57,255 nt of DNA from a virus, in the IMG/VR virus record IMGVR_UViG_3300046007_011961, positions 1 through 57,255 of that record. One strand, given 5' to 3'. Of the stretch, positions 13,887 through 44,338 are shown piece after piece. The notes under the pieces were generated by a model. It made no database searches. It was given only the letters and a program-made list of their open reading frames with translations, and was not told the DNA's origin. Made by a program: the position numbers and the translations under genes. Numbering within the stretch: the first letter of the stretch is position 1; every line of letters starts with the position of its first letter.

Positions 13887-14111
13887 ATGAAATCGGGTTC
13901 TAGCTTAATGTTCGTTGTTGTAGGGCTATTATTATCTGCTTGCGCTACACGAAGCAGACTGCCCCTGTATTCTCCTGTAGTTGTCCCGCCTCCTGCACAT
14001 AACACAAATTCACTCGGAGGCAACATAGATGATATCGATAACTCACTTAAAAAAGCTTCATCTGAGATAGACAGAATTAAAATACTGATAGATTCCATAC
14101 CAGTTAATTAA
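13887..14111 (+). CDS. Small lipoprotein, outer-membrane spanin candidate
   Basis: 74 residues. The signal SSLMFVVVGLLLSAC ends in a lipobox with Cys at residue 19. A Pro-rich stretch (VVVPPPAHN) and a helical C-terminus follow. Short Pro-rich lipoproteins next to a holin and endolysin are typical of outer-membrane spanins. The pairing with the next gene, which has a coiled coil and membrane helices, supports this but is not proof. Confidence 0.6.
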   Translation: MKSGSSLMFVVVGLLLSACATRSRLPLYSPVVVPPPAHNTNSLGGNIDDIDNSLKKASSEIDRIKILIDSIPVN

Positions 14112-14113
14112 GT

Positions 14114-14644
14114 ATGAAAAAATATATTATTTTTATTTCTGTTTTTCTGTGCGCTGCTTCTTTAAAAGCAGACGACAAGAACGCATTCAATAGCGAGTTG
14201 AAGCGTAGATTATCTTTGGAGTTGAGTAATCTACAGACTTCTATGATGGATGCAAAGAATGAGATAGCTCAGCTGCGTAGAGATAAAGCCCATATAGATG
14301 CTGATCTTAAAAACATGGAGAGCTGGGGTAAAGTTCAAGAGCAGGAAAAAAATGATTACTATGAGCAAATCATAGAAGCAAATCAAAAAACTTCAGATGT
14401 ACAGGCACAAGTAGACACTGAGATAGAAAAGAATAAAGCCACACTTTTAAAATATCGTAGAGTCAAATCTATACTAGGTTATATCTTTGGACTTGTTTTG
14501 AGCTATCTCTATATCAGGCTAGGTGCTCAAGCATTGTCGACAATAGCGTCAACGCTAGTAGGTCCATGGGCTTTTGTATTACGTTTTGCTGGACCTGTAC
14601 TGGCTTTCGGGGCAGGCTATTTAACTGTTAATCTAATGTTTTAG
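14114..14644 (+). CDS. Coiled-coil protein with signal peptide and C-terminal TM helices
   Basis: 176 residues. An N-terminal signal (MKKYIIFISVFLCAASLKAD) is followed by a coiled coil at about 27-115 (SLELSNLQTSMMDAKNEIAQ and further) and two hydrophobic helices at about 120-140 and 150-175. It starts two bases after the lipoprotein stop. It could be the inner-membrane partner of the spanin-like lipoprotein, although the topology is not the usual one. Confidence 0.6.
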   Translation: MKKYIIFISVFLCAASLKADDKNAFNSELKRRLSLELSNLQTSMMDAKNEIAQLRRDKAHIDADLKNMESWGKVQEQEKNDYYEQIIEANQKTSDVQAQVDTEIEKNKATLLKYRRVKSILGYIFGLVLSYLYIRLGAQALSTIASTLVGPWAFVLRFAGPVLAFGAGYLTVNLMF

Positions 14645-14646
14645 TT

Positions 14647-15087
14647 ATGTTTAAATCTCTAATCAATGTTGCAAAAAATGCTGCTTCGTTCTTACAAACC
14701 GGAGTAACTCCTCCTGGAGTATGTCCTCTAGAACAGAAAGATGTGGCAGATACCAATCACTTCGCCAGTAAAAAATTCTTTGCAGCCTTTTCAGGATTTA
14801 TTATTTTAGCTGTTTTTTACATCAGCAGCATAGGTATACTGTTTCTCCTAGATCACGAGCCTGCATTACTCGCAATCTATCCCACAATATTCACAAAAAC
14901 AGTAGAGGTGTTTGCAGCTATCATGGCAGTGTACCTAGGAGGGCAGGCAGTGGTAGATCTCAAGTACAACAGCACCAGCAACGCCTCGCTAGACGCCAAG
15001 GTTGAGGTTGTTGATATAACTGAACGTAAAATCACAAACGAAAAAGAAGACGACTATACACTGGAAATTGAAGATGAAACTAAATGA
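14647..15087 (+). CDS. Membrane protein, holin candidate
   Basis: 146 residues. Two membrane helices at about 45-68 (FFAAFSGFIILAVFYISSIG) and 80-98 (FTKTVEVFAAIMAVYLGG) are followed by a long acidic cytoplasmic tail. Its position directly before a lysozyme gene, overlapping it by 14 bases, is the main reason to call it a holin. Holins have no conserved sequence. Confidence 0.6.
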   Translation: MFKSLINVAKNAASFLQTGVTPPGVCPLEQKDVADTNHFASKKFFAAFSGFIILAVFYISSIGILFLLDHEPALLAIYPTIFTKTVEVFAAIMAVYLGGQAVVDLKYNSTSNASLDAKVEVVDITERKITNEKEDDYTLEIEDETK

Positions 15088-36021: not shown

Positions 36022-36768
36022 TTACTGCTCTAACACTTGACTCCAGTACCGACTGTCTGGATATCCTTGCTTTACGTCCCAATATATGCATCTAGCAACG
36101 TATGGTGGAATTCTCCACATCGTGCACATGTCCACCCAATGCTTTTCAATTTTTTCATATTGTTTGGCATCTTTTACCTGATCCAGACCATAAGCCTGAA
36201 ACATGTGAGTGTCTAAACATGTGAGTTTTGCCTGGGTAGGATAGCACATTTCTATCGCAAAACTCGTCTTTGCTGGTCCTAAGCCTAACGTTACGCGCTT
36301 CAGTCTATTTCTAAATTCAACCCAGGATTCTCCATCGACTTTTTTATATGCTTCAGGATTTTCCCAGAACTTATGCGTGAACTCTGATATAAACTTGACT
36401 CGTACGTTATGCATACCTACTCTGCTGCCTTGTATGGCTTCTAGTAGGTCGTCCCATTTATTAATCCAACGCCACCAATTTTTGATTGCTTGATATCCTA
36501 CGATATTAGATTTCCAGGAGGTATGTACGCTCATAAAAGCGAACAACCATCGCCGAAGTATCTCGCTATCATTCTTTGGGGTTATACTGTCCCAATAATC
36601 CAAATAAGCTGGTACTACAGAGTAGTCCATCTCATTGAAGAATTTCTCTACTGTCGAATATCTCCAAGCATCAGGTTGCTTAGAGTCTAGATCCCACAGT
36701 TCTAGTTGACTTTTAAATTTAGTTACAGGAGAGCCATCATAACCTGTAATAAAATTAAGTTGCAACAT
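36022..36768 (-). CDS. HhH-GPD-like DNA glycosylase
   Basis: 248 residues. A helix-hairpin-helix-like segment RVTLGLGPAKTSFAIEM is followed 13 residues later by CLDTHMF, whose Asp would be the catalytic residue of HhH-GPD base-excision glycosylases. The rest is helical and Trp-rich. Substrate base unknown. The 3' end of RuvC overlaps its start by 14 bases, so the two are co-expressed. Moderate confidence in the family. Confidence 0.6.
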   Translation of the reverse strand: MLQLNFITGYDGSPVTKFKSQLELWDLDSKQPDAWRYSTVEKFFNEMDYSVVPAYLDYWDSITPKNDSEILRRWLFAFMSVHTSWKSNIVGYQAIKNWWRWINKWDDLLEAIQGSRVGMHNVRVKFISEFTHKFWENPEAYKKVDGESWVEFRNRLKRVTLGLGPAKTSFAIEMCYPTQAKLTCLDTHMFQAYGLDQVKDAKQYEKIEKHWVDMCTMWRIPPYVARCIYWDVKQGYPDSRYWSQVLEQ

Positions 36769-37282
36769 TTTTACCTGTCTTTAATAGGTTCTGATTCTTC
36801 CTTCGTAGGAATTCTGCAATCAGTAACCCGTCTGCATCTTTTTTGATGTTTAGCTGCGGAAACAACCTTCTACCTATATCTAGACTGGCTTTTTTGAGCT
36901 CGTCGCTACCTTTGATACCTGTGGGTAATAAGTGTTTTTGCCACTCTTTACTATCAATGTACTCATAACGGAACTGATGCTGCTCCACAGCAATCAGCGT
37001 GGCCTCAAGTGCCCTTACAGCAGACAACGAAGCATTGAATCTGGTACTGTTTACCATAGGTCGCTCTAATCCTACTATAAACTGAGTGCCCTGGTATAGC
37101 GCTCGCAGCTTTTCAAACAATTCACACAAATCATTGAAGTTTATCCTGGTTATGTGTTTTGCTTCTTTGGTGTAGCTTAACTCTTTTTTAACAGGTAGAG
37201 GGTATAGGCTAGCAACACCCTCACTGTTCACCACACCTATACCATTATTGGTTACTCCGTTATCTATTCCTATGTATATCAT
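36755..37282 (-). CDS. ruvC: RuvC-like Holliday-junction resolvase
   Basis: 175 residues. The RNase H-fold carboxylates are in place: D7 in IYIGIDNGVTNNGIG, E73 in VGLERP, and D149/D151 in IKKDADGLLIAEF. The length fits phage RuvC proteins. It would resolve branched replication or recombination intermediates before packaging, together with RecA and SbcCD encoded nearby. Confidence 0.88.
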   Translation of the reverse strand: MIYIGIDNGVTNNGIGVVNSEGVASLYPLPVKKELSYTKEAKHITRINFNDLCELFEKLRALYQGTQFIVGLERPMVNSTRFNASLSAVRALEATLIAVEQHQFRYEYIDSKEWQKHLLPTGIKGSDELKKASLDIGRRLFPQLNIKKDADGLLIAEFLRRKNQNLLKTGKNVAT

Positions 37283-37293
37283 AATTTATGTGT

Positions 37294-37324
37294 GCCTAGG
37301 TACAGGATCGGACCATACCTAGGC
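37294..37324. repeat. Perfect inverted repeat upstream of ruvC
   Basis: GCCTAGGTA (37294-37302) and TACCTAGGC (37316-37324) pair perfectly around a 13-base loop, 11 bases before the ruvC start on the minus strand. No T-run follows on that strand. It may be an RNA hairpin affecting ruvC translation, an RNase processing site or an operator. Confidence 0.65.
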
Positions 37325-37332
37325 CTGTTAGG

Positions 37333-37521
37333 CTAGACAATGCTATTAAGCAGCTCCATTACTTTTTCGTAATTTTTGTGCTTGGCATTTCTTAATGTTA
37401 GGTTGTTTTTTAACCATCTTGCATCGTCGTTATGCTTGACTGTTTTCCGATAAGCTGGAAGATCCATCTTTGCGATGAGTTTCTCAACTTCCGCTAATTT
37501 TTGTAAGTAATCACTAGACAT
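37333..37521 (-). CDS. Small helical hypothetical protein (62 aa)
   Basis: A charged helical protein (SDYLQKLAEVEKLIAKMD, RNAKHKNYEKVMELLNSI). It is 17 bases from the upstream gene. Not recognised. Confidence 0.5.
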   Translation of the reverse strand: MSSDYLQKLAEVEKLIAKMDLPAYRKTVKHNDDARWLKNNLTLRNAKHKNYEKVMELLNSIV

Positions 37522-37538
37522 ACTGAGACAAGCTTTAA

Positions 37539-38030
37539 TTAAGTCATTAGCAAATTGATTTCCGTAGAAGTCAATCTATCTAATGCTGTGGCAACGCCTG
37601 CAGCATAGCAGAAAGTATCATCTTCTGAACATTCGCTAGATACGCAGATGTATCTACCTGATTTATGCTTGATAACTAGATGCGTATATCCTCCTTTAGG
37701 AAGGAAGATGTACATCGGATCACTACGAAACGTAGACGGTACAACCAAAGCCCTGCTAGCAATATTTCTAGAATTGCGTGGCACATCATACAATGGAAGG
37801 TATAGAGCCCAGCGGAGATGTTTAACTCTCACACTGTTTCCTGCTTCCTGCAGCTGTTGAATGGTGAGACCATTCTTTGCAGCGAACACAGGTTTAACAG
37901 GCTTTGGTCTAGCTTTCCAGGCCCACATCTTATGGTTTAAGTGGTCTGTTTTAATGAACGTGTCGGATACCTCATGGTACTCTGTTGTGTACCTAGACAT
38001 ATCACAATCGTTATTCTGCGCTGTAGTCAT
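37539..38030 (-). CDS. Hypothetical protein (163 aa)
   Basis: ATG at 38030 (MTTAQNNDCDMSRY) is preferred; an in-frame start at 38060 would overlap recA by 50 bases. The protein is beta-rich, with GGYTHLVIKHKSGRYICVSS and CYAAGVATALDRL near the end. It lies directly downstream of recA. Function unknown. Confidence 0.5.
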   Translation of the reverse strand: MTTAQNNDCDMSRYTTEYHEVSDTFIKTDHLNHKMWAWKARPKPVKPVFAAKNGLTIQQLQEAGNSVRVKHLRWALYLPLYDVPRNSRNIASRALVVPSTFRSDPMYIFLPKGGYTHLVIKHKSGRYICVSSECSEDDTFCYAAGVATALDRLTSTEINLLMT

Positions 38031-39228
38031 ATGTTGTCTTGTTTTCAACTTCAACTTCAAGGTCAGACTTTTTCTTGCGTCTGGCTTTATTTGTTTCGGC
38101 GATAGCTGCCTCTACTTCAGGCGGAGGCATGTCAGGGATTCCGAATGCTTCCCTGATTTTTTCTTTAGCTTGTGCACTGCTTTTAATCAGTAATGCTAGA
38201 TCTTGTTCTCTAAACTTCTTCTCTGTATCTATAACACCTTTGATAGGCTCATTCTCAGTTTCTAGGAAAAACTCCATATCTGGAATCTTCCACGTATACC
38301 ATCCACCAGTCTTTGCAACTATAGCAGGGTAATGTTCACCCAACATACGCACTAACGGAGAATACCAATCGATACCTCCATTGATATGTACATCGAATTC
38401 TATCTTCTGACTGTTACCCTCACGCCCTAGTTTATTACGTTTTACAGTCATGGTGTGCGTTGAACCTGACTTGCGTTTAACACCCATATGATCCTCTTCT
38501 AGGTTATCTCTGATACGAGCAACCTTGAATTGGTATGTACTGTTGAAACGTTGAGCGTCACCGCCAAGCAAAGCTTCAGGCTTTTCAGCTCCGAACCCTT
38601 GCATTCCACCAATCTGGTCACGCAGCTGATTGGTGGCAACAAATACCATATTCTCACATTCCAAGTAAGGAATAATGCTACGGTAAAATGCAGCCATCAA
38701 CTTTGCATGCTCGCCAGGTTTTGCCTGACCAATCACGTCCTGATCTCGCTCGTAGTCAGTAGCACCACCAGCAATCGAATCTAGTGCAATAAGCACAGGC
38801 GTTTTTCCGTCGCTGTGTTTGCTATAGTTTTCGATAATCATTTTACATAATGTCAAAGCCTCTTCAATACCTCGAGGATTATGATAAATGACTTTGGTTG
38901 GATCTACTCCCTGCAACTCCATATAACGGAAGTCAGGGGCACTCTCGGTCTCAATCCAGAACATGTACCCTCCAGCTTTCTGGAATATTTTAGCAAGGTC
39001 GAACAGCAATGTAGTTTTGCTGCAGCCCTTCTTCCCGTAAACGAGATAGCACCGACCGTAGGCCATAAACCTACGGTCGAATGCATATTCCATTAGGGGG
39101 TTATCTAGAACAATACCTGTAGGAGGAAGTTCCTTATCCACGGTATTTAGATCTAGATTCACAGCTTCAGTTTTGAACGTTTTGCCAAAACTTTTTTTAA
39201 CTGCACCTAACAGGCCATCTATATTCAT
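38011..39228 (-). CDS. recA: RecA-like recombinase
   Basis: 405 residues. Walker A is YGKKGCSKTTLL (residues 64-75) with Cys-Ser where most RecA proteins have Gly-Ser-Gly-like bases; Walker B VLIALDSIAGG (Asp150). ATNQLRDQIGGMQG matches the L1/L2 region and SFE-like residues. Basic tail RRKKKSD at the end. It would carry out strand exchange in replication-coupled recombination. The SSB candidate is just upstream. Confidence 0.9.
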   Translation of the reverse strand: MNIDGLLGAVKKSFGKTFKTEAVNLDLNTVDKELPPTGIVLDNPLMEYAFDRRFMAYGRCYLVYGKKGCSKTTLLFDLAKIFQKAGGYMFWIETESAPDFRYMELQGVDPTKVIYHNPRGIEEALTLCKMIIENYSKHSDGKTPVLIALDSIAGGATDYERDQDVIGQAKPGEHAKLMAAFYRSIIPYLECENMVFVATNQLRDQIGGMQGFGAEKPEALLGGDAQRFNSTYQFKVARIRDNLEEDHMGVKRKSGSTHTMTVKRNKLGREGNSQKIEFDVHINGGIDWYSPLVRMLGEHYPAIVAKTGGWYTWKIPDMEFFLETENEPIKGVIDTEKKFREQDLALLIKSSAQAKEKIREAFGIPDMPPPEVEAAIAETNKARRKKKSDLEVEVENKTTYDYSAE

Positions 39229-39234
39229 ATTTTA

Positions 39235-40263
39235 TTATTCTTGTGACATAAACCGCTGAGCTTCTTCGCGGCTTAACATACCAGCCATCATAGGATTCTT
39301 AGGTAGTGAACTTAGGTCCACTGCGGCTGGAGGGTTAATAGCTGTGGTTGGGGCCGAGATATTAACCTTGGGGATGTCGATAGCCGCTACCGCAACAGGA
39401 GCAACTACAGCTTTAGCAATTTCTTGCTTGGGCTGAATTTCTTTTGCAGGCGGCGACAACCTTTCAGCTAAACTGGCTCCTTGCACAGCAGACTTAGTTA
39501 ACCCAGGAAACCCGTTCATGCAATCATCAAATACATCTGGTGAATACATTTCGCGAAGTTTTGCAAGGATTTCTTCTTTGCTCTTTGGAACAAAGATCTC
39601 ATCCAAGTTATACAGATAGTCGCTGTCTGCCAACTGCAACGGCAGTTGTACAGCTTGATTATTTTCTACCTGTACTGTCCAAGGATTTGCAGAGTTGTCC
39701 TTTAATTTCACAAACACTGGCACACAGCGTTCATGATCATTGACAGGTTGTCTGCGATTACCGTTCAAGTCTTTGCCTTCCAACCAAGTCATTAACGCGT
39801 CTGCACCATTACGGAGAGGCAGGTCAAGCACATGTGCACCAGCTCCTAGATTCTGAGCAAACGCCACATTGTACACTACACGCTCAGCAAGCCTGCCGCA
39901 GTTTGGGTATTTCTTGAACTTTTTACCATTGCTCTCACCATCAACAACCCTCGCATCGTCAGGATACAGGAGCTTGAAGTTGTTTGCAAAGTAGTCTGCT
40001 GGGTCTTGAGCCCGATTAGGTACATAGTATTTTTCTTTGTAGTTGGTGCCAAAATTATCTCGGATAAAGATCTTTTTGTACCATACACCCTGTCCTGCTT
40101 CGTCTGCTTTGTAAGCAGGCAGGAAATAGAGATATGCGCCCTCCTGGTTATTTGTTTTATTAAATATTGCCTTACGTACACCGTCTTTGATGTATGGTGC
40201 AGCTGATGCGGTTAGATTTAGTTCTGAGCCTTCGAATTTAAGAGATGGTTTAATGATTGCCAT
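39235..40263 (-). CDS. Single-stranded DNA-binding protein candidate (gp32-like)
   Basis: 342 residues. The central part has AYLYFLPAYKADE, KKIFIRDNFGTNY, then PADYFANNFKLLYPDDA and RVVYNVAFAQNLGAGAHVLD, which resembles the order of strands in the OB core of T4 gp32-type proteins. The tail is low-complexity Pro/Ala, ending in an acidic peptide (EEAQRFMSQE), as SSB tails do. The position next to recA supports the call, but no zinc site was seen. Confidence 0.65.
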   Translation of the reverse strand: MAIIKPSLKFEGSELNLTASAAPYIKDGVRKAIFNKTNNQEGAYLYFLPAYKADEAGQGVWYKKIFIRDNFGTNYKEKYYVPNRAQDPADYFANNFKLLYPDDARVVDGESNGKKFKKYPNCGRLAERVVYNVAFAQNLGAGAHVLDLPLRNGADALMTWLEGKDLNGNRRQPVNDHERCVPVFVKLKDNSANPWTVQVENNQAVQLPLQLADSDYLYNLDEIFVPKSKEEILAKLREMYSPDVFDDCMNGFPGLTKSAVQGASLAERLSPPAKEIQPKQEIAKAVVAPVAVAAIDIPKVNISAPTTAINPPAAVDLSSLPKNPMMAGMLSREEAQRFMSQE

Positions 40264-40326
40264 ATATATGTGTGTTATTTATCTATTTAGTTTTATTTTT
40301 ATTTATCTGTACTGCGATTGTTTAGT

Positions 40327-40920
40327 TTATACCATGAACACTGATTTAAAGGTCTGCTGGCCTCTAAGCTTGTTTAGAAAAGCTTGCACCATCATACCTG
40401 CCACTATTGTGGGGAGAGTATGGCTGATGTTCTGATCTTTCTCGTAGGCTAGCAAGCACCCACCTTCTTCCTGACTACTGTCAACATATGGTTGTAGCTG
40501 CTCTTTGGGCAAATCACTATTGAATAGAGCGCCTTGTCTGCTTGTGCAGCGCCCATCAACCCAAAACAGCTTATTTTTACCTGCGGCCCATCCATAATCA
40601 TAGAGTGCCTTACGGAATGGCATGCTGTCAACACAACTAAAGATCATGTCGTAATTTTTGAAGTCTTTTACGGTCATTCTCTTTTTGATACCATTGACTA
40701 CGTATTTTTCTTCCAGAACACTTACTTTATGCTGCCCTACATCATCAAGCTTAAAGTTCTGGTGTAGTAGATTTTTTAAATCAACCGTATCGTCATCGAA
40801 GATATCTACCTGCATGGCAGCATAGTCGAATTGCTTACGGTTGAACCCGTAATCGAAGAATATAGCCAAGAGGTTTGACCCAATACCTCCGGCTCCGGCA
40901 ATACCAATTTTTTTAAACAT
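40327..40920 (-). CDS. E1/ThiF-like adenylyltransferase
   Basis: 197 residues. The Rossmann ATP loop is GIAGAGGIGSNLL (residues 6-18); then IFDDDTVDLKNLLHQ, the E1 motif with His instead of the usual Arg, GQHKVSVLEEK with the conserved Lys, and FSCVDSMPFRKAL, the ThiF/E1 Asp-Arg pair. A single candidate Cys is in EEGGCLLAYEKDQ. Four bases separate it from the JAMM gene, as in PRTRC cassettes and bacterial ubiquitin-like systems. It would adenylate the C-terminus of a small beta-grasp protein. The partner is unknown. Confidence 0.82.
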   Translation of the reverse strand: MFKKIGIAGAGGIGSNLLAIFFDYGFNRKQFDYAAMQVDIFDDDTVDLKNLLHQNFKLDDVGQHKVSVLEEKYVVNGIKKRMTVKDFKNYDMIFSCVDSMPFRKALYDYGWAAGKNKLFWVDGRCTSRQGALFNSDLPKEQLQPYVDSSQEEGGCLLAYEKDQNISHTLPTIVAGMMVQAFLNKLRGQQTFKSVFMV

Positions 40921-40924
40921 GTTT

Positions 40925-41344
40925 TTATACTTCAGTTAACGCTGCTACTGTTTTTTTAGGGATGTAATATACTGCGGATTGTTCTCCTATCCATTCAGAA
41001 TGGGAGAACATGTTTGTTGTTGGGGCGAATATTATGTTGTACCTGAACCCTTGGAATAGTTTCTCAAGGTCCAGACTACTAGGGCAAGGTGACCATTGCG
41101 GATGTGTATGAAAGCTTGCATAGAACTTCCAGCCATCTCCGACTCTAGTCAACACATTTTCCCTCAATTCTGTTTGATCTGTCTCATAAAGTCCTGCAGC
41201 AGTAGCAGTACCTTCATGAATGTTTTTAACTTTTACAAAACAATATTCATTGTTTTTTGCCAATATGATGCCGCCTTGCTCCTCTATGGGATCTGTACAG
41301 CTTTCGGCTGCCTGCAGCATTATTTTAAATAATTTAGTATTCAT
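40925..41344 (-). CDS. JAB/MPN (JAMM) metalloprotease
   Basis: 139 residues. The JAMM zinc motif is complete: Glu in EEQGGIILA near residue 22 and H79-x-H81-x7-S89-x2-D92 (FHTHPQWSPCPSSLD). It is a single-domain protein, so it is not a tail NlpC/JAB fusion. JAMM enzymes remove ubiquitin-like modifiers or process their precursors. It overlaps the 718-residue gene by ATGA. A partner role with the E1-like enzyme is well supported by gene order. Confidence 0.88.
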   Translation of the reverse strand: MNTKLFKIMLQAAESCTDPIEEQGGIILAKNNEYCFVKVKNIHEGTATAAGLYETDQTELRENVLTRVGDGWKFYASFHTHPQWSPCPSSLDLEKLFQGFRYNIIFAPTTNMFSHSEWIGEQSAVYYIPKKTVAALTEV

Positions 41345-43497
41345 TTGTTTTCGACTACATCATCAAACACTTTAGTGACAAGCTCTTCTATTTTTTCTGA
41401 AGGGTCACGTTCAGGAACATAGTCGTTATGTACGTTTTCTGCATTGGGTTGAGCCGCACCCCTAAGCGTTCCTATATGTTGCTGCATAGTGCTGTCATTT
41501 TTCAATGCAAGCAATCTAGCAGCAATATCATCATAACCAGCTCCAGCATAATGCCTATCGTTTACAATACAGCGATATTGTTTTGTTGCGAAGTCATATA
41601 CCTTTGCAGTCTCAATAATTACAGCATATTCGCGAAGTGTGCCCTTCACGTGATACGCTTGCTTACCCAGGAACTCAATTATCTTTGCATCAGTTAGTTT
41701 TACTGCTGTGGCCAGGAATTCTTTTGACCTTTCAATTACTTGCCGTTTTTGCTCATTGACTACATCCAGAAGTTTTACAATGTCTCCTCGTGTAATCAAT
41801 ACCTCTGATACCAGCTCTTCAGTTCCATCTTCTTTTTTCTGTACCCGCTGGAATGTAGAACATTCTATCAGAATGTTTACCAACTGCTCAGCACACCATA
41901 TATAGTTTCTAACTCCGTGGGTTTTATAAAACCCTCCAGGAACTAGACCATAATAATTTTTCCCATTAGTCTTTTTGTTTAAGACTTCTACTTTCTTGAT
42001 GAGCTTGCCTAGATGCACTCTAACCAATCTGTCTTTATCTACCTGCAGTTTAAAATGCTTGTGCTGGGAGTCTATACACAGCTTCAGTGCAGGAGCAAGA
42101 GGACCAGGTTCGTAAGTAGCGTATTCGTCCCTGGTGATAGTTGAATGAATCTTCACTGGCAGACCGTTAGCAATGATATCATGATATTTGATACTCATTC
42201 TGCTGATGCTCTTCAAAAACAACTTATAGTCGTCTTCGTTATGATAGCAGCTTGCACGGCTAATCGCTTTAGCTAGCTCATCTTTATTGATACGCACACC
42301 ATTAATATACCTTTGGTATGTTTTTGATATGGACGTATTGATGCTGATGTTATTAATCTTAACAGCAGAAACGACCTTTCTTTCCGCTCCCTCAAGTTCT
42401 ACGTCTTGCTCTGGCGGCTGCTCTACAGGTTCACCCTCGTCAGCAACTGCAGGTGCATCTTGCGGTTGCTCAGGATCAGACTTATTAAGGGTCTTCTCCA
42501 TGTGAGCTGCATATATGTTTGTGATCGTGTATATGTCGAATTCACCATTAAAGTTTAATTCTTGATATAGAACATCCAGTAAATTGTCCGCTTCTATTGA
42601 AATTTGCTCATAGATTGCGCTGCTTTTTGTGAATGAGATGTTGTTGATTGTCGTCTTGTCTATAGAGCCTTCAACCAATTTCCCAACAACAAGAAGAGTA
42701 GTATTCTGCTTATAGTCGGTTTCAATCGCATTTGAGATATGCTCGCTGTACTTTGATTTACTCTTACCATCATTTAGCTTTTTGCTCATCTTGAGACGAG
42801 TCATCTCTGCGGTGTGTACGTTTATGAAACACCCGTGTTGCAACATATCGATCAGTTTTGGCTCTGCACAACACATAGCAAAGATATGTGCTACGTTTAC
42901 ATCGTATGCATTAGCCACCACATGCCTGTATGTTTTTTTAAATCCTACAGTGTGCTCTATAGTATGAAAATAAAATCCTTTGTCCAGATAGTCATACATC
43001 TTATCATCGTTTCTACAAATAACTGAAAATTGAGGACTATTCCAGTCTTTGTACTCAGTTAAAAACCTATATGTATGGTCTCCTTCTGTGAATTCGATAG
43101 GGTCTTGTTCAATTATTTTTGGACGTACAGATTCCGGTGTATTTGAAGGAGTGAATTTTAACGTTTTAAACTGCCTAGCATGATCTGTGGAAATTTCCTT
43201 CAAGATATACTTATTTTCAGCGGTATGGGTGTTAATTTTTTCGTTAAACACAAGCGTATTCATCCCATTATTGTTTAGCAAATTAATGCTCAGGACGATA
43301 GGTCTGTGTTTGTTAAACGCATACATCTTGCCTATGGTTTTAAACTGTAACGCCGAGTAGTTCGCGTAAAAAACCATGTCATAGCCGTTAGCATATTTAT
43401 AGTCTAATTTAATATCTGCGTCAGTGAAGCATTTCGCCAGTAGTTGATATTCTTTGGATATTTCTTTGAATTTAGATGATTTTATGAGCAGCGGCAT
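41341..43497 (-). CDS. Large unknown protein linked to E1/JAMM genes
   Basis: 718 residues with no motif that I can name. An acidic linker at about 345-370 (DPEQPQDAPAVADEGEPVEQ) splits an N-terminal half with clustered Cys and His (FAMCCAEPKLIDMLQHGCF) from a C-terminal half with YINGVRINKDELAKAIS, YYGLVPGGFYKTHG and YAGAGYDDIAARLLA. It is coupled to the JAMM gene and follows a terminator that closes the upstream gene. It might be the E2-like, substrate or scaffold component of the putative modifier system; all that is inference. Confidence 0.6.
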   Translation of the reverse strand: MPLLIKSSKFKEISKEYQLLAKCFTDADIKLDYKYANGYDMVFYANYSALQFKTIGKMYAFNKHRPIVLSINLLNNNGMNTLVFNEKINTHTAENKYILKEISTDHARQFKTLKFTPSNTPESVRPKIIEQDPIEFTEGDHTYRFLTEYKDWNSPQFSVICRNDDKMYDYLDKGFYFHTIEHTVGFKKTYRHVVANAYDVNVAHIFAMCCAEPKLIDMLQHGCFINVHTAEMTRLKMSKKLNDGKSKSKYSEHISNAIETDYKQNTTLLVVGKLVEGSIDKTTINNISFTKSSAIYEQISIEADNLLDVLYQELNFNGEFDIYTITNIYAAHMEKTLNKSDPEQPQDAPAVADEGEPVEQPPEQDVELEGAERKVVSAVKINNISINTSISKTYQRYINGVRINKDELAKAISRASCYHNEDDYKLFLKSISRMSIKYHDIIANGLPVKIHSTITRDEYATYEPGPLAPALKLCIDSQHKHFKLQVDKDRLVRVHLGKLIKKVEVLNKKTNGKNYYGLVPGGFYKTHGVRNYIWCAEQLVNILIECSTFQRVQKKEDGTEELVSEVLITRGDIVKLLDVVNEQKRQVIERSKEFLATAVKLTDAKIIEFLGKQAYHVKGTLREYAVIIETAKVYDFATKQYRCIVNDRHYAGAGYDDIAARLLALKNDSTMQQHIGTLRGAAQPNAENVHNDYVPERDPSEKIEELVTKVFDDVVENK

Positions 43498-43518
43498 AGC
43501 TTAATAGATTTTAGTAGG

Positions 43519-43555
43519 TAAAATAAACCCTCTGGCGCGCAAGGCACCAGAGGGT
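43519..43555 (-). terminator. Rho-independent terminator
   Basis: On the minus strand ACCCTCTGG / CCAGAGGGT (43547-43555 and 43527-43535) forms a 9-bp stem with an 11-base loop, followed by TTATTTTA. It closes the transcript of the gene at 43586-43954. The next gene begins 22 bases on, so some readthrough or a hidden promoter must serve it. Confidence 0.85.
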
Positions 43556-43585
43556 GTAATAATTCAGGATGTCAGTAATAAAGTA

Positions 43586-43954
43586 CTATTCAATATCGAA
43601 CAGTACTGCTTGTCCGCCAACAAGCATACCTGTCAAAAGAATGGCAGGATCGAATTGGGCTTGAAGCTTGGTTTGAAGCTTCTGTACGTTTTCTTGTGCT
43701 CGGAAATTACCTCCAGCGAATTCAAATTTTTCGCCGTTGATAAATACCCACCGAGCTTTTGCCTCCGCATTTTCAATGATTTTTTCGGTAGCTTCCTCGA
43801 GACTGAGGTCCATGACAGTGCTGTGGCCAGTACGGTCAGCGATTTCAATCTTATACTTTGGAGTAGCAGCCAGCTCTGCTGTAAAGCTCTGGATGTTTTT
43901 GAGTGCTTCTGCGAGGTCTGCGGTTCCGACGGAGGAGTTATTTGATTCTGACAT
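43586..43954 (-). CDS. Small protein, possible ubiquitin-like modifier
   Basis: 122 residues. The part at about 30-80 has a beta-grasp-like order: strand YKIEI, strand STVMDLSL, helix EEATEKIIENAEAK, strand ARWVFINGEKFEF. Toward the end LLTGMLVGGQAVLFDIE contains Gly-Gly before a short tail, as a precursor to be cut by a JAMM enzyme would. It has its own promoter and terminator, as expected for an abundant small protein. The fold reading is my inference; no database match was made, and another role is quite possible. Confidence 0.5.
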   Translation of the reverse strand: MSESNNSSVGTADLAEALKNIQSFTAELAATPKYKIEIADRTGHSTVMDLSLEEATEKIIENAEAKARWVFINGEKFEFAGGNFRAQENVQKLQTKLQAQFDPAILLTGMLVGGQAVLFDIE

Positions 43955-43994
43955 ATAATTATTATTTTTTAACTGATTACTTTGGTTTGTGACT

Positions 43995-44023
43995 ATTATA
44001 ACTCGGAATGAGCTATAGGTCGA
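43995..44023 (-). promoter_or_regulatory. Sigma70-like promoter
   Basis: On the minus strand TCGACC (44018-44023), 17 bases, then TATAAT (43995-44000), a perfect -10 box and 4 of 6 at -35. It lies 41 bases before the ATG of the small gene at 43586-43954. It is the best host-type promoter visible in this window. Confidence 0.6.
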
Positions 44024-44050
44024 TTAATTTTGTTCTGGGGAGAACGTTAC

Positions 44051-44338
44051 TTACTTACAGGATGAGGTACGGCAATTACGTTTTGGGCGAATGCCATACA
44101 TGCGGCACATAGCGTTAAAGTCTGTGCTAGGCACCAAGCGGCGATGTTGGCTGTTTTTGCCGTGTGTGATACGGCGGATTACTGGAGCTTCTTCAAGCAG
44201 GTTAAGAAAACCTGATCCGTAGGTTTTCACAAGATCACTCACAAAGAAGTACTTGCGGCGCTCAAGATGTACGCAGCGGCTACCGTTGTTGTCGTGATAT
44301 ACTGTTGTTTTATTTGTTTTGGTTTTATTCTTAGTCAT
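44051..44338 (-). CDS. Small basic protein (95 aa)
   Basis: A basic protein with Lys/Thr N-terminus (KNKTKTNKTTVYHDNN) and a helical middle (YFFVSDLVKTYGSGFLNLL), ending RPKRNCRTSSCK. It may bind DNA. It lies just downstream of the GP88-family gene. Not recognised. Confidence 0.5.
   Translation of the reverse strand: MTKNKTKTNKTTVYHDNNGSRCVHLERRKYFFVSDLVKTYGSGFLNLLEEAPVIRRITHGKNSQHRRLVPSTDFNAMCRMYGIRPKRNCRTSSCK

Follow-up and report, generated by a model that had tools for sequence, protein, structure and literature searches.

A putative virus-encoded ubiquitin-like conjugation cassette within a viral replication module

A 57,255-base virus fragment (IMG/VR record IMGVR_UViG_3300046007_011961; hereafter the window, with all coordinates given on this whole stretch) carries a four-gene cassette that probably encodes a system for conjugating a ubiquitin-like protein to replication or recombination proteins and for removing it again. 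Its parts are a 122-residue ubiquitin-like protein (Ubl), a 718-residue protein (P718), a JAMM metalloprotease (JAMM), and an E1-like enzyme (E1). All four genes were found on the minus strand where a preliminary description of this DNA had placed them, and the coupling it proposed for the last three is borne out by a 4-base overlap of the P718 and JAMM genes and a 4-base spacing between JAMM and E1; the Ubl gene is separated from P718 by an 88-base gap. Prokaryotic Ubl conjugation is known from host defense and from predicted operons, and here viruses carry the whole set beside their replication genes. If the reading is right, Ubl chemistry has a reservoir in these viruses, which would also supply a new candidate family of E2-like proteins and an E1 in which a residue thought necessary for activation has been replaced. 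The features on which the argument turns are as follows.

43586 to 43954, minus strand: Ubl, 122-residue precursor (core residues 33-114 at 43613-43858)
43613 to 43618, minus strand: Gly113-Gly114, conserved end of the Ubl core and predicted processing/activation site (kept in 61 of 62 distinct relatives)
43589 to 43612, minus strand: C-terminal tail of Ubl, QAVLFDIE, with predicted removal by JAMM (variable or absent among relatives)
41341 to 43497, minus strand: P718, 718 residues, candidate E2-like carrier or E2/E3 fusion
41458 to 41790, minus strand: C-terminal domain of P718, residues 570-680 (helix, four strands, Cys, two helices; weak similarity to DUF7737)
41569 to 41571, minus strand: Cys643 of P718, the sole cysteine invariant in its family
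40925 to 41344, minus strand: JAMM/JAB metalloprotease (motif HTHPQWSPCPSSLD at 41069-41110)
40327 to 40920, minus strand: E1-like adenylating enzyme (Cys155 at 40456-40458; His53, replacing Arg, at 40762-40764)

The four parts travel together. An E1 alignment scan gave 280 viral relatives, and among the best 80 loci, which were analyzed and are not all independent (several are near-identical contigs), 63 contain all four parts, so that the association of E1, JAMM, and P718 suggested earlier holds well beyond the window. A Ubl homologue lies near E1 in 66 of 66 viral loci whose contig extends far enough upstream; in each of the 14 among the 80 loci that lack one, at most about 4.2 kb separates E1 from a contig end (distances counted by reading the locus listing). 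In close relatives the block running from Ubl through P718, JAMM, and E1 to the single-stranded DNA-binding protein (SSB) and RecA genes is syntenic. The order is P718-Ubl-JAMM-E1 in loci L067, L070, and L096, the first of which has sigma factor and DNA polymerase A genes after the cassette. A large group of loci carries TFIIB-like genes (accompanied in L072 by genes for DNA ligase and an RFC-like clamp loader) and probably represents archaeal viruses. In some contigs of marine archaea a single protein of 400 residues combines E1 and JAMM, and the gene immediately upstream of it encodes Ubl. Judged by these gene contents, the carriers would comprise bacterial phages and, probably, archaeal-type viruses, many of them distantly related. 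Such conservation shows that the cassette is under selection. Two cassette contigs assigned to metagenome-assembled genomes (L119, Dependentiae; L120, Methanomassiliicoccaceae) look like phage contigs binned into them; in L119, as in the window, a RecA gene follows E1, and L120 carries a sigma-70 gene. Marine Group II archaeal chromosome contigs (L126:7941-9175) have adjacent E1 and JAMM genes with no recognizable Ubl of this family nearby.

The core of the small protein ends in a conserved Gly-Gly. In the window Gly113-Gly114 is followed by the eight-residue tail, just as the preliminary description had it, and IMG/VR relatives align well through these glycines and diverge beyond them, with tails reading QAVLFDIE, LLQELLSLE, LGIAE, TK, C, VK, TKA, or none. 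Among the 62 distinct family members recovered in a wider search, the sole exception to the core-terminal Gly-Gly (L152) lies close to a contig end; the length of what follows the Gly-Gly ranges from 0 to about 150 residues, and 14 distinct Ubls terminate exactly there. A constant Gly-Gly with a variable tail is the pattern expected of a processed Ubl precursor, as this protein appears to be. In L119 two Ubl units stand in tandem, each with the end LTGDLAGG, a layout like that of polyubiquitin. In L062 (4644-5375) and L063 (4937-5422) Ubl runs on past Gly-Gly for an extra ~75-157 residues, extensions that recall ubiquitin-ribosomal protein fusions.

We modeled Ubl with AlphaFold from 17 sequences and obtained a beta-beta-alpha-beta-beta-alpha-beta arrangement with a disordered tail (mean predicted local distance difference test [pLDDT] 67). 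The VIA structure matches for this model are nearly all beta-grasp proteins (MoaD, ISG15, SUMO, ubiquitin; best Z 5.4, a low value), and some of the alignments reach the Gly-Gly, pairing residues 32-114 with MoaD residues 1-74 and residues 28-114 with ISG15 78-157 in an E1-E2 complex structure; Foldseek gave no match to the model at E < 0.001. A beta-grasp fold is thus likely, not proven, and the pattern first noticed by eye is upheld at that level. The preliminary proposal turned on two points, the fold and conservation near E1 and JAMM genes: the model is beta-grasp, and the protein is conserved in related and distant viruses.

The superposition on MoaD would also suit a different chemistry, in which Ubl is a ThiS/MoaD-type sulfur carrier that E1 adenylates for thiocarboxylation (for tRNA thiolation or a cofactor) and JAMM only matures, as in cysteine-synthase-linked operons. 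E1 does belong to the ThiF family, and JAMM enzymes accompany ThiS/MoaD-like proteins in some sulfur-assimilation operons (PMC1779556). We nevertheless regard a sulfur carrier as quite unlikely: the neighbors are replication genes, with no rhodanese, cysteine desulfurase, tRNA-thiolation, or sulfur gene seen among those scanned; E1 has no CxxC zinc pairs; JAMM is retained where Ubl is tailless; and tandem Ubl units and a partner with an invariant cysteine suit conjugation better.

E1 matches Pfam ThiF at 2.5e-18, with GAGGIGS at residues 9-15 and Asp98 conserved, in agreement with the Rossmann E1-like assignment made earlier, and its closest solved relatives are the NEDD8 E1 (2.8e-7) and CBASS Cap2 (4e-6); matches to ThiF/MoeB equivalog families were absent or below cut-off. 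Across 79 distinct E1s the glycine motif, Asp42, Lys65, Asp98, Arg103, and Cys155 show little or no variation, and Cys155, present in 79 of 79, is the natural candidate for a thioester. This enzyme also bears on whether Ubl is transferred covalently at all. A Ubl could act without covalent transfer, as phage lambda tail protein I does with its JAB partner, and Ubl/JAB pairs lacking an E1 do occur in tail assembly clusters (PMC1779556). Here, however, E1 is always present, with an invariant cysteine and ATP-site residues intact except for one Arg, and no tail genes were seen adjoining the cassette, which makes non-covalent action highly improbable. In one locus (L018:13659-14991) the E1 gene is interrupted by an insert, possibly a self-splicing intron, with a 323-residue homing-endonuclease-like open reading frame (13892-14863).

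JAMM matches Prok-JAB at 8.4e-8, above cut-off, and the motif of the window protein (HTHPQWSPCPSSLD, residues 79-92) completes E...HxHx7SxxD with an invariant Glu pair upstream, so that the protease is as complete as had been described. The full motif adjoins E1 in nearly all loci. Because it is also kept in 13 of the 14 loci whose distinct Ubl ends exactly at Gly-Gly, trimming is probably not its sole use, and the pattern points to deconjugation besides maturation.

P718 had been described as a protein of unknown family, and it indeed scored above cut-off with none of the families in Pfam, PHROG, or NCBIfam; the phage collection yielded no close match to it. An iterated profile seeded on a 400-residue protein of the archaeal-type viruses recovers P718 with E down to 1e-30, which unites the two in one family. 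The first profile comparison between them was weak (probability 9%), and deeper alignments support homology; because the deeper hhalign set mixes both groups, it cannot count as independent, and the case for homology is made by the iterated-profile E-values. The 77 family members differ in length by 300 residues and share only five positions with at least 95% identity, one of which is Cys643. In the AlphaFold model of P718 (mean pLDDT 74.5) residues 570-677 form a long helix, four strands, Cys643, and two helices; this predicted order of elements is that of E2 enzymes, and Cys643 would lie where they hold their cysteine. On sequence and model together we give about an even chance that this domain is the missing E2-like carrier, and we do not class it as an E2. 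A gene of ~210 residues lies between P718 and JAMM in L001 (8946-9572), L002, L003, L013, and L018 and is absent from the window; we considered it as an E2 and rejected it, its N-terminal motif (like Y-I-L-H-I-E-T-A) resembling by eye that of a 3'-5' exonuclease.

From these parts, with Gly-Gly, Cys155, Cys643, and the JAMM motif as fixed points, we infer a pathway. Ubl would be produced in precursor form, probably in excess and from a transcript of its own, and JAMM would trim its tail to expose Gly114. E1 would adenylate Gly114 and then hold Ubl as a thioester on Cys155, from which it would be handed to Cys643 in the C-terminal domain of P718; P718 would act as an E2-like carrier attaching Ubl to targets, and its large N-terminal part may select substrates. 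JAMM would also take Ubl off its targets.

Several observations weigh against this pathway. Ubl has no sequence match to known Ubl families (Pfam, PHROG, and NCBIfam at cut-off), and its model is of moderate confidence only, with structure matches of correspondingly modest score. No JAMM was seen in three loci, L076, L085, and L101, of which L085 and L101 lie close to contig ends. The canonical Arg of the N-x-x-R-Q motif, which matters for adenylation by MoeB, is absent from E1: at this position the 79 sequences have Tyr (48) or His (31) and never Arg, and the substitution that had been reported for the window is indeed there, as His53. We read these enzymes as one consistent departure within the superfamily, a membership that rests on the ThiF match. 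For P718 the earlier statement that no E2 is recognizable stands as far as sequence goes, there being no significant match to E2 profiles or structures, and needs amending in that the C-terminal domain is now a candidate. P718 also lacks an HPN (His-Pro-Asn) motif, and its model is weak right after Cys643 (pLDDT below 50 for residues 644-652). VIA matches to the domain are weak (Z 2-3.4), even though proteins of RWD/UBC fold are among them, such as RWD domains from the kinetochore and a subunit of the BRCA1-A complex, and so is the E2 UBE2H; Foldseek with the P718 model gave no match at E < 0.001. The best family hint is DUF7737, a Pfam family of unknown function weakly matched by 10 of 15 P718 members (best 1.8e-4); no DUF7737 turned up in the five genomes and the controls that were searched.

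P718 could instead be a substrate, a receptor, or an unrelated replication protein, with E1 alone moving Ubl from Cys155 to lysines, a variant of the same pathway rather than its opposite, and one considered for E1/JAB operons by Iyer et al. (PMC1779556). The missing E2 match, an N-terminal 560 residues with no assigned fold, and a DUF7737 hint that is mute about function all favor it, and we grant it a substantial chance, well short of an even one. It leaves aside, however, that Cys643 is one of just five residues kept nearly invariant across 77 members of differing length, and that the gene stays near those for E1, JAMM, and Ubl in bacterial and archaeal-type viruses alike.

Expression of the cassette and its likely targets are suggested by the sites and genes around it.

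43995 to 44023, minus strand: promoter-like match 5' of the Ubl gene (weak; such sites are no more frequent than in shuffled sequence)
43527 to 43555, minus strand: hairpin resembling an intrinsic terminator, with a T-rich tail, separating the Ubl gene from the enzyme genes (recurs in 20 of 23 loci)
39235 to 40263, minus strand: SSB (by position and the earlier call; no family match)
38011 to 39228, minus strand: RecA/UvsX-like recombinase (family match)

The hairpin occupies the same position in the 20 loci with differing sequences. Across the region as a whole, promoter-like and terminator-like sites are no more numerous than expected from shuffling, and the argument from the hairpin therefore depends on its recurrence at one position. 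The genes are arranged as if Ubl were to be made in excess over its enzymes, which a hairpin between the Ubl gene and P718 would let happen; given also the intergenic gap and the promoter-like match, the separate expression proposed for Ubl is plausible.

The order on the minus strand is Ubl, P718, JAMM, E1, SSB, and recombinase. Of the adjacency claimed for the last two, the RecA part is confirmed by family and the SSB part stands by position. The surrounding replication module includes a DnaB-like helicase, DNA polymerase, primase, an SbcC-like protein, a Holliday junction resolvase, and ligases. Because the cassette sits among replication and recombination genes, the likeliest targets would be the viral replication and recombination machinery, or host proteins at that site. 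SUMO and ubiquitin regulate replication proteins at eukaryotic forks. Tentatively, and at somewhat less than an even chance, we extend the reading to a pathway with its own Ubl family, an E1 lacking the Arg, and new E2-like carriers that would be a core replication component of many bacterial and archaeal viruses, regulating replication proteins.

The same enzymes could instead tag or untag host defense proteins (for example, Cap2-modified CD-NTases or Bil-tagged virion proteins), a reading that overlaps with ours and differs from it in the target only. E1 and JAMM do resemble CBASS Cap2 and Cap3-type proteins, host Ubl-like conjugation acts against phages (PMC10097602), and the many deSAMPylases of Borg elements are interpreted as counter-defense (PMC12660748). 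The set is, however, conserved in synteny with core replication genes instead of occurring sporadically in an accessory region, and a dedicated Ubl and candidate carrier are present rather than a deconjugase alone, so that counter-defense seems to us unlikely.

The proposed conjugation of Ubl to replication proteins can be set against several known systems. Type II CBASS (cyclic oligonucleotide-based antiphage signaling system) shares an E1 and a JAMM enzyme, and the window E1 matches Cap2 structures as given above and the PADLOC E1-E2 family at 1e-4, but the cassette lacks a fused E1-E2 protein. In CBASS it is the CD-NTase itself that Cap2 conjugates, and there is no separate Ubl. We rejected assignment to this type, as no CD-NTase was found in a Pfam scan of ten cassette and flanking proteins (36755-44338), PADLOC having been run on the cassette proteins only and the rest of the window left unscanned. 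The bacterial Bil and Bub systems combine Ubl, E1, E2, and JAMM in host operons; the four-part logic is the same, whereas the window set is virus-borne and its Ubl and P718 have no family match in the libraries used. Iyer et al. (2006, PMC1779556) predicted bacterial operons of E1, JAB, Ubl, and E2-like proteins, among them the PRTRC cassette (type 6d), with a JAB, an E1, a small Ubl with a conserved C-terminal Gly, and an E2-like protein. PRTRC thus has the same four roles in one operon, and PRTRC ThiF is the best NCBIfam match of the window E1 (9.7e-12), although at 44.7 bits against a cut-off of 144.75 bits (PRTRC_ThiF). With PRTRC proteins A, B, and C unmatched in NCBIfam as well, membership was rejected; the window cassette sits in a virus replication module and has a different Ubl and partner protein. 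Borg deSAMPylases are JAMM deubiquitinase-like enzymes likewise carried on a mobile element, the available part of that source describing proteases and no set of E1, Ubl, and carrier (PMC12660748).

We found no description of the cassette in the open literature, subscription papers lying outside the search. What appears to be new is the full set within viral replication modules, together with families of Ubl, Arg-less E1, and invariant-Cys partner that the libraries used do not recognize. The nearest viral counterpart is a ThiF/JAB cluster of crAss-like phages (cr85_1, DAC15, and the PhiCrAss group), in which a small beta-grasp-like protein, a ~390-residue protein, JAB, and E1 lie beside replication genes; crAss cr85_1 was the only hit of the window E1 in the phage collection (31% identity). 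The crAss-like E1 is only ~30% identical to that of the window, over part of its length, the beta-grasp-like stretch of the small protein lacks a terminal Gly-Gly, and the first two genes correspond to Ubl and P718 by gene order. In three such clusters, from cultured and metagenomic phages (L038:4855-8570, L164:2483-6660, and L165:2625-6756), the beta-grasp-like N-terminus of the small protein ends in KSG and the ~390-residue protein has invariant PCxG and CTFKG motifs, followed by JAB and ThiF. Because similar clusters occur in cultured crAss-like Bacteroides phages, experiments on a viral cassette of this kind are possible.

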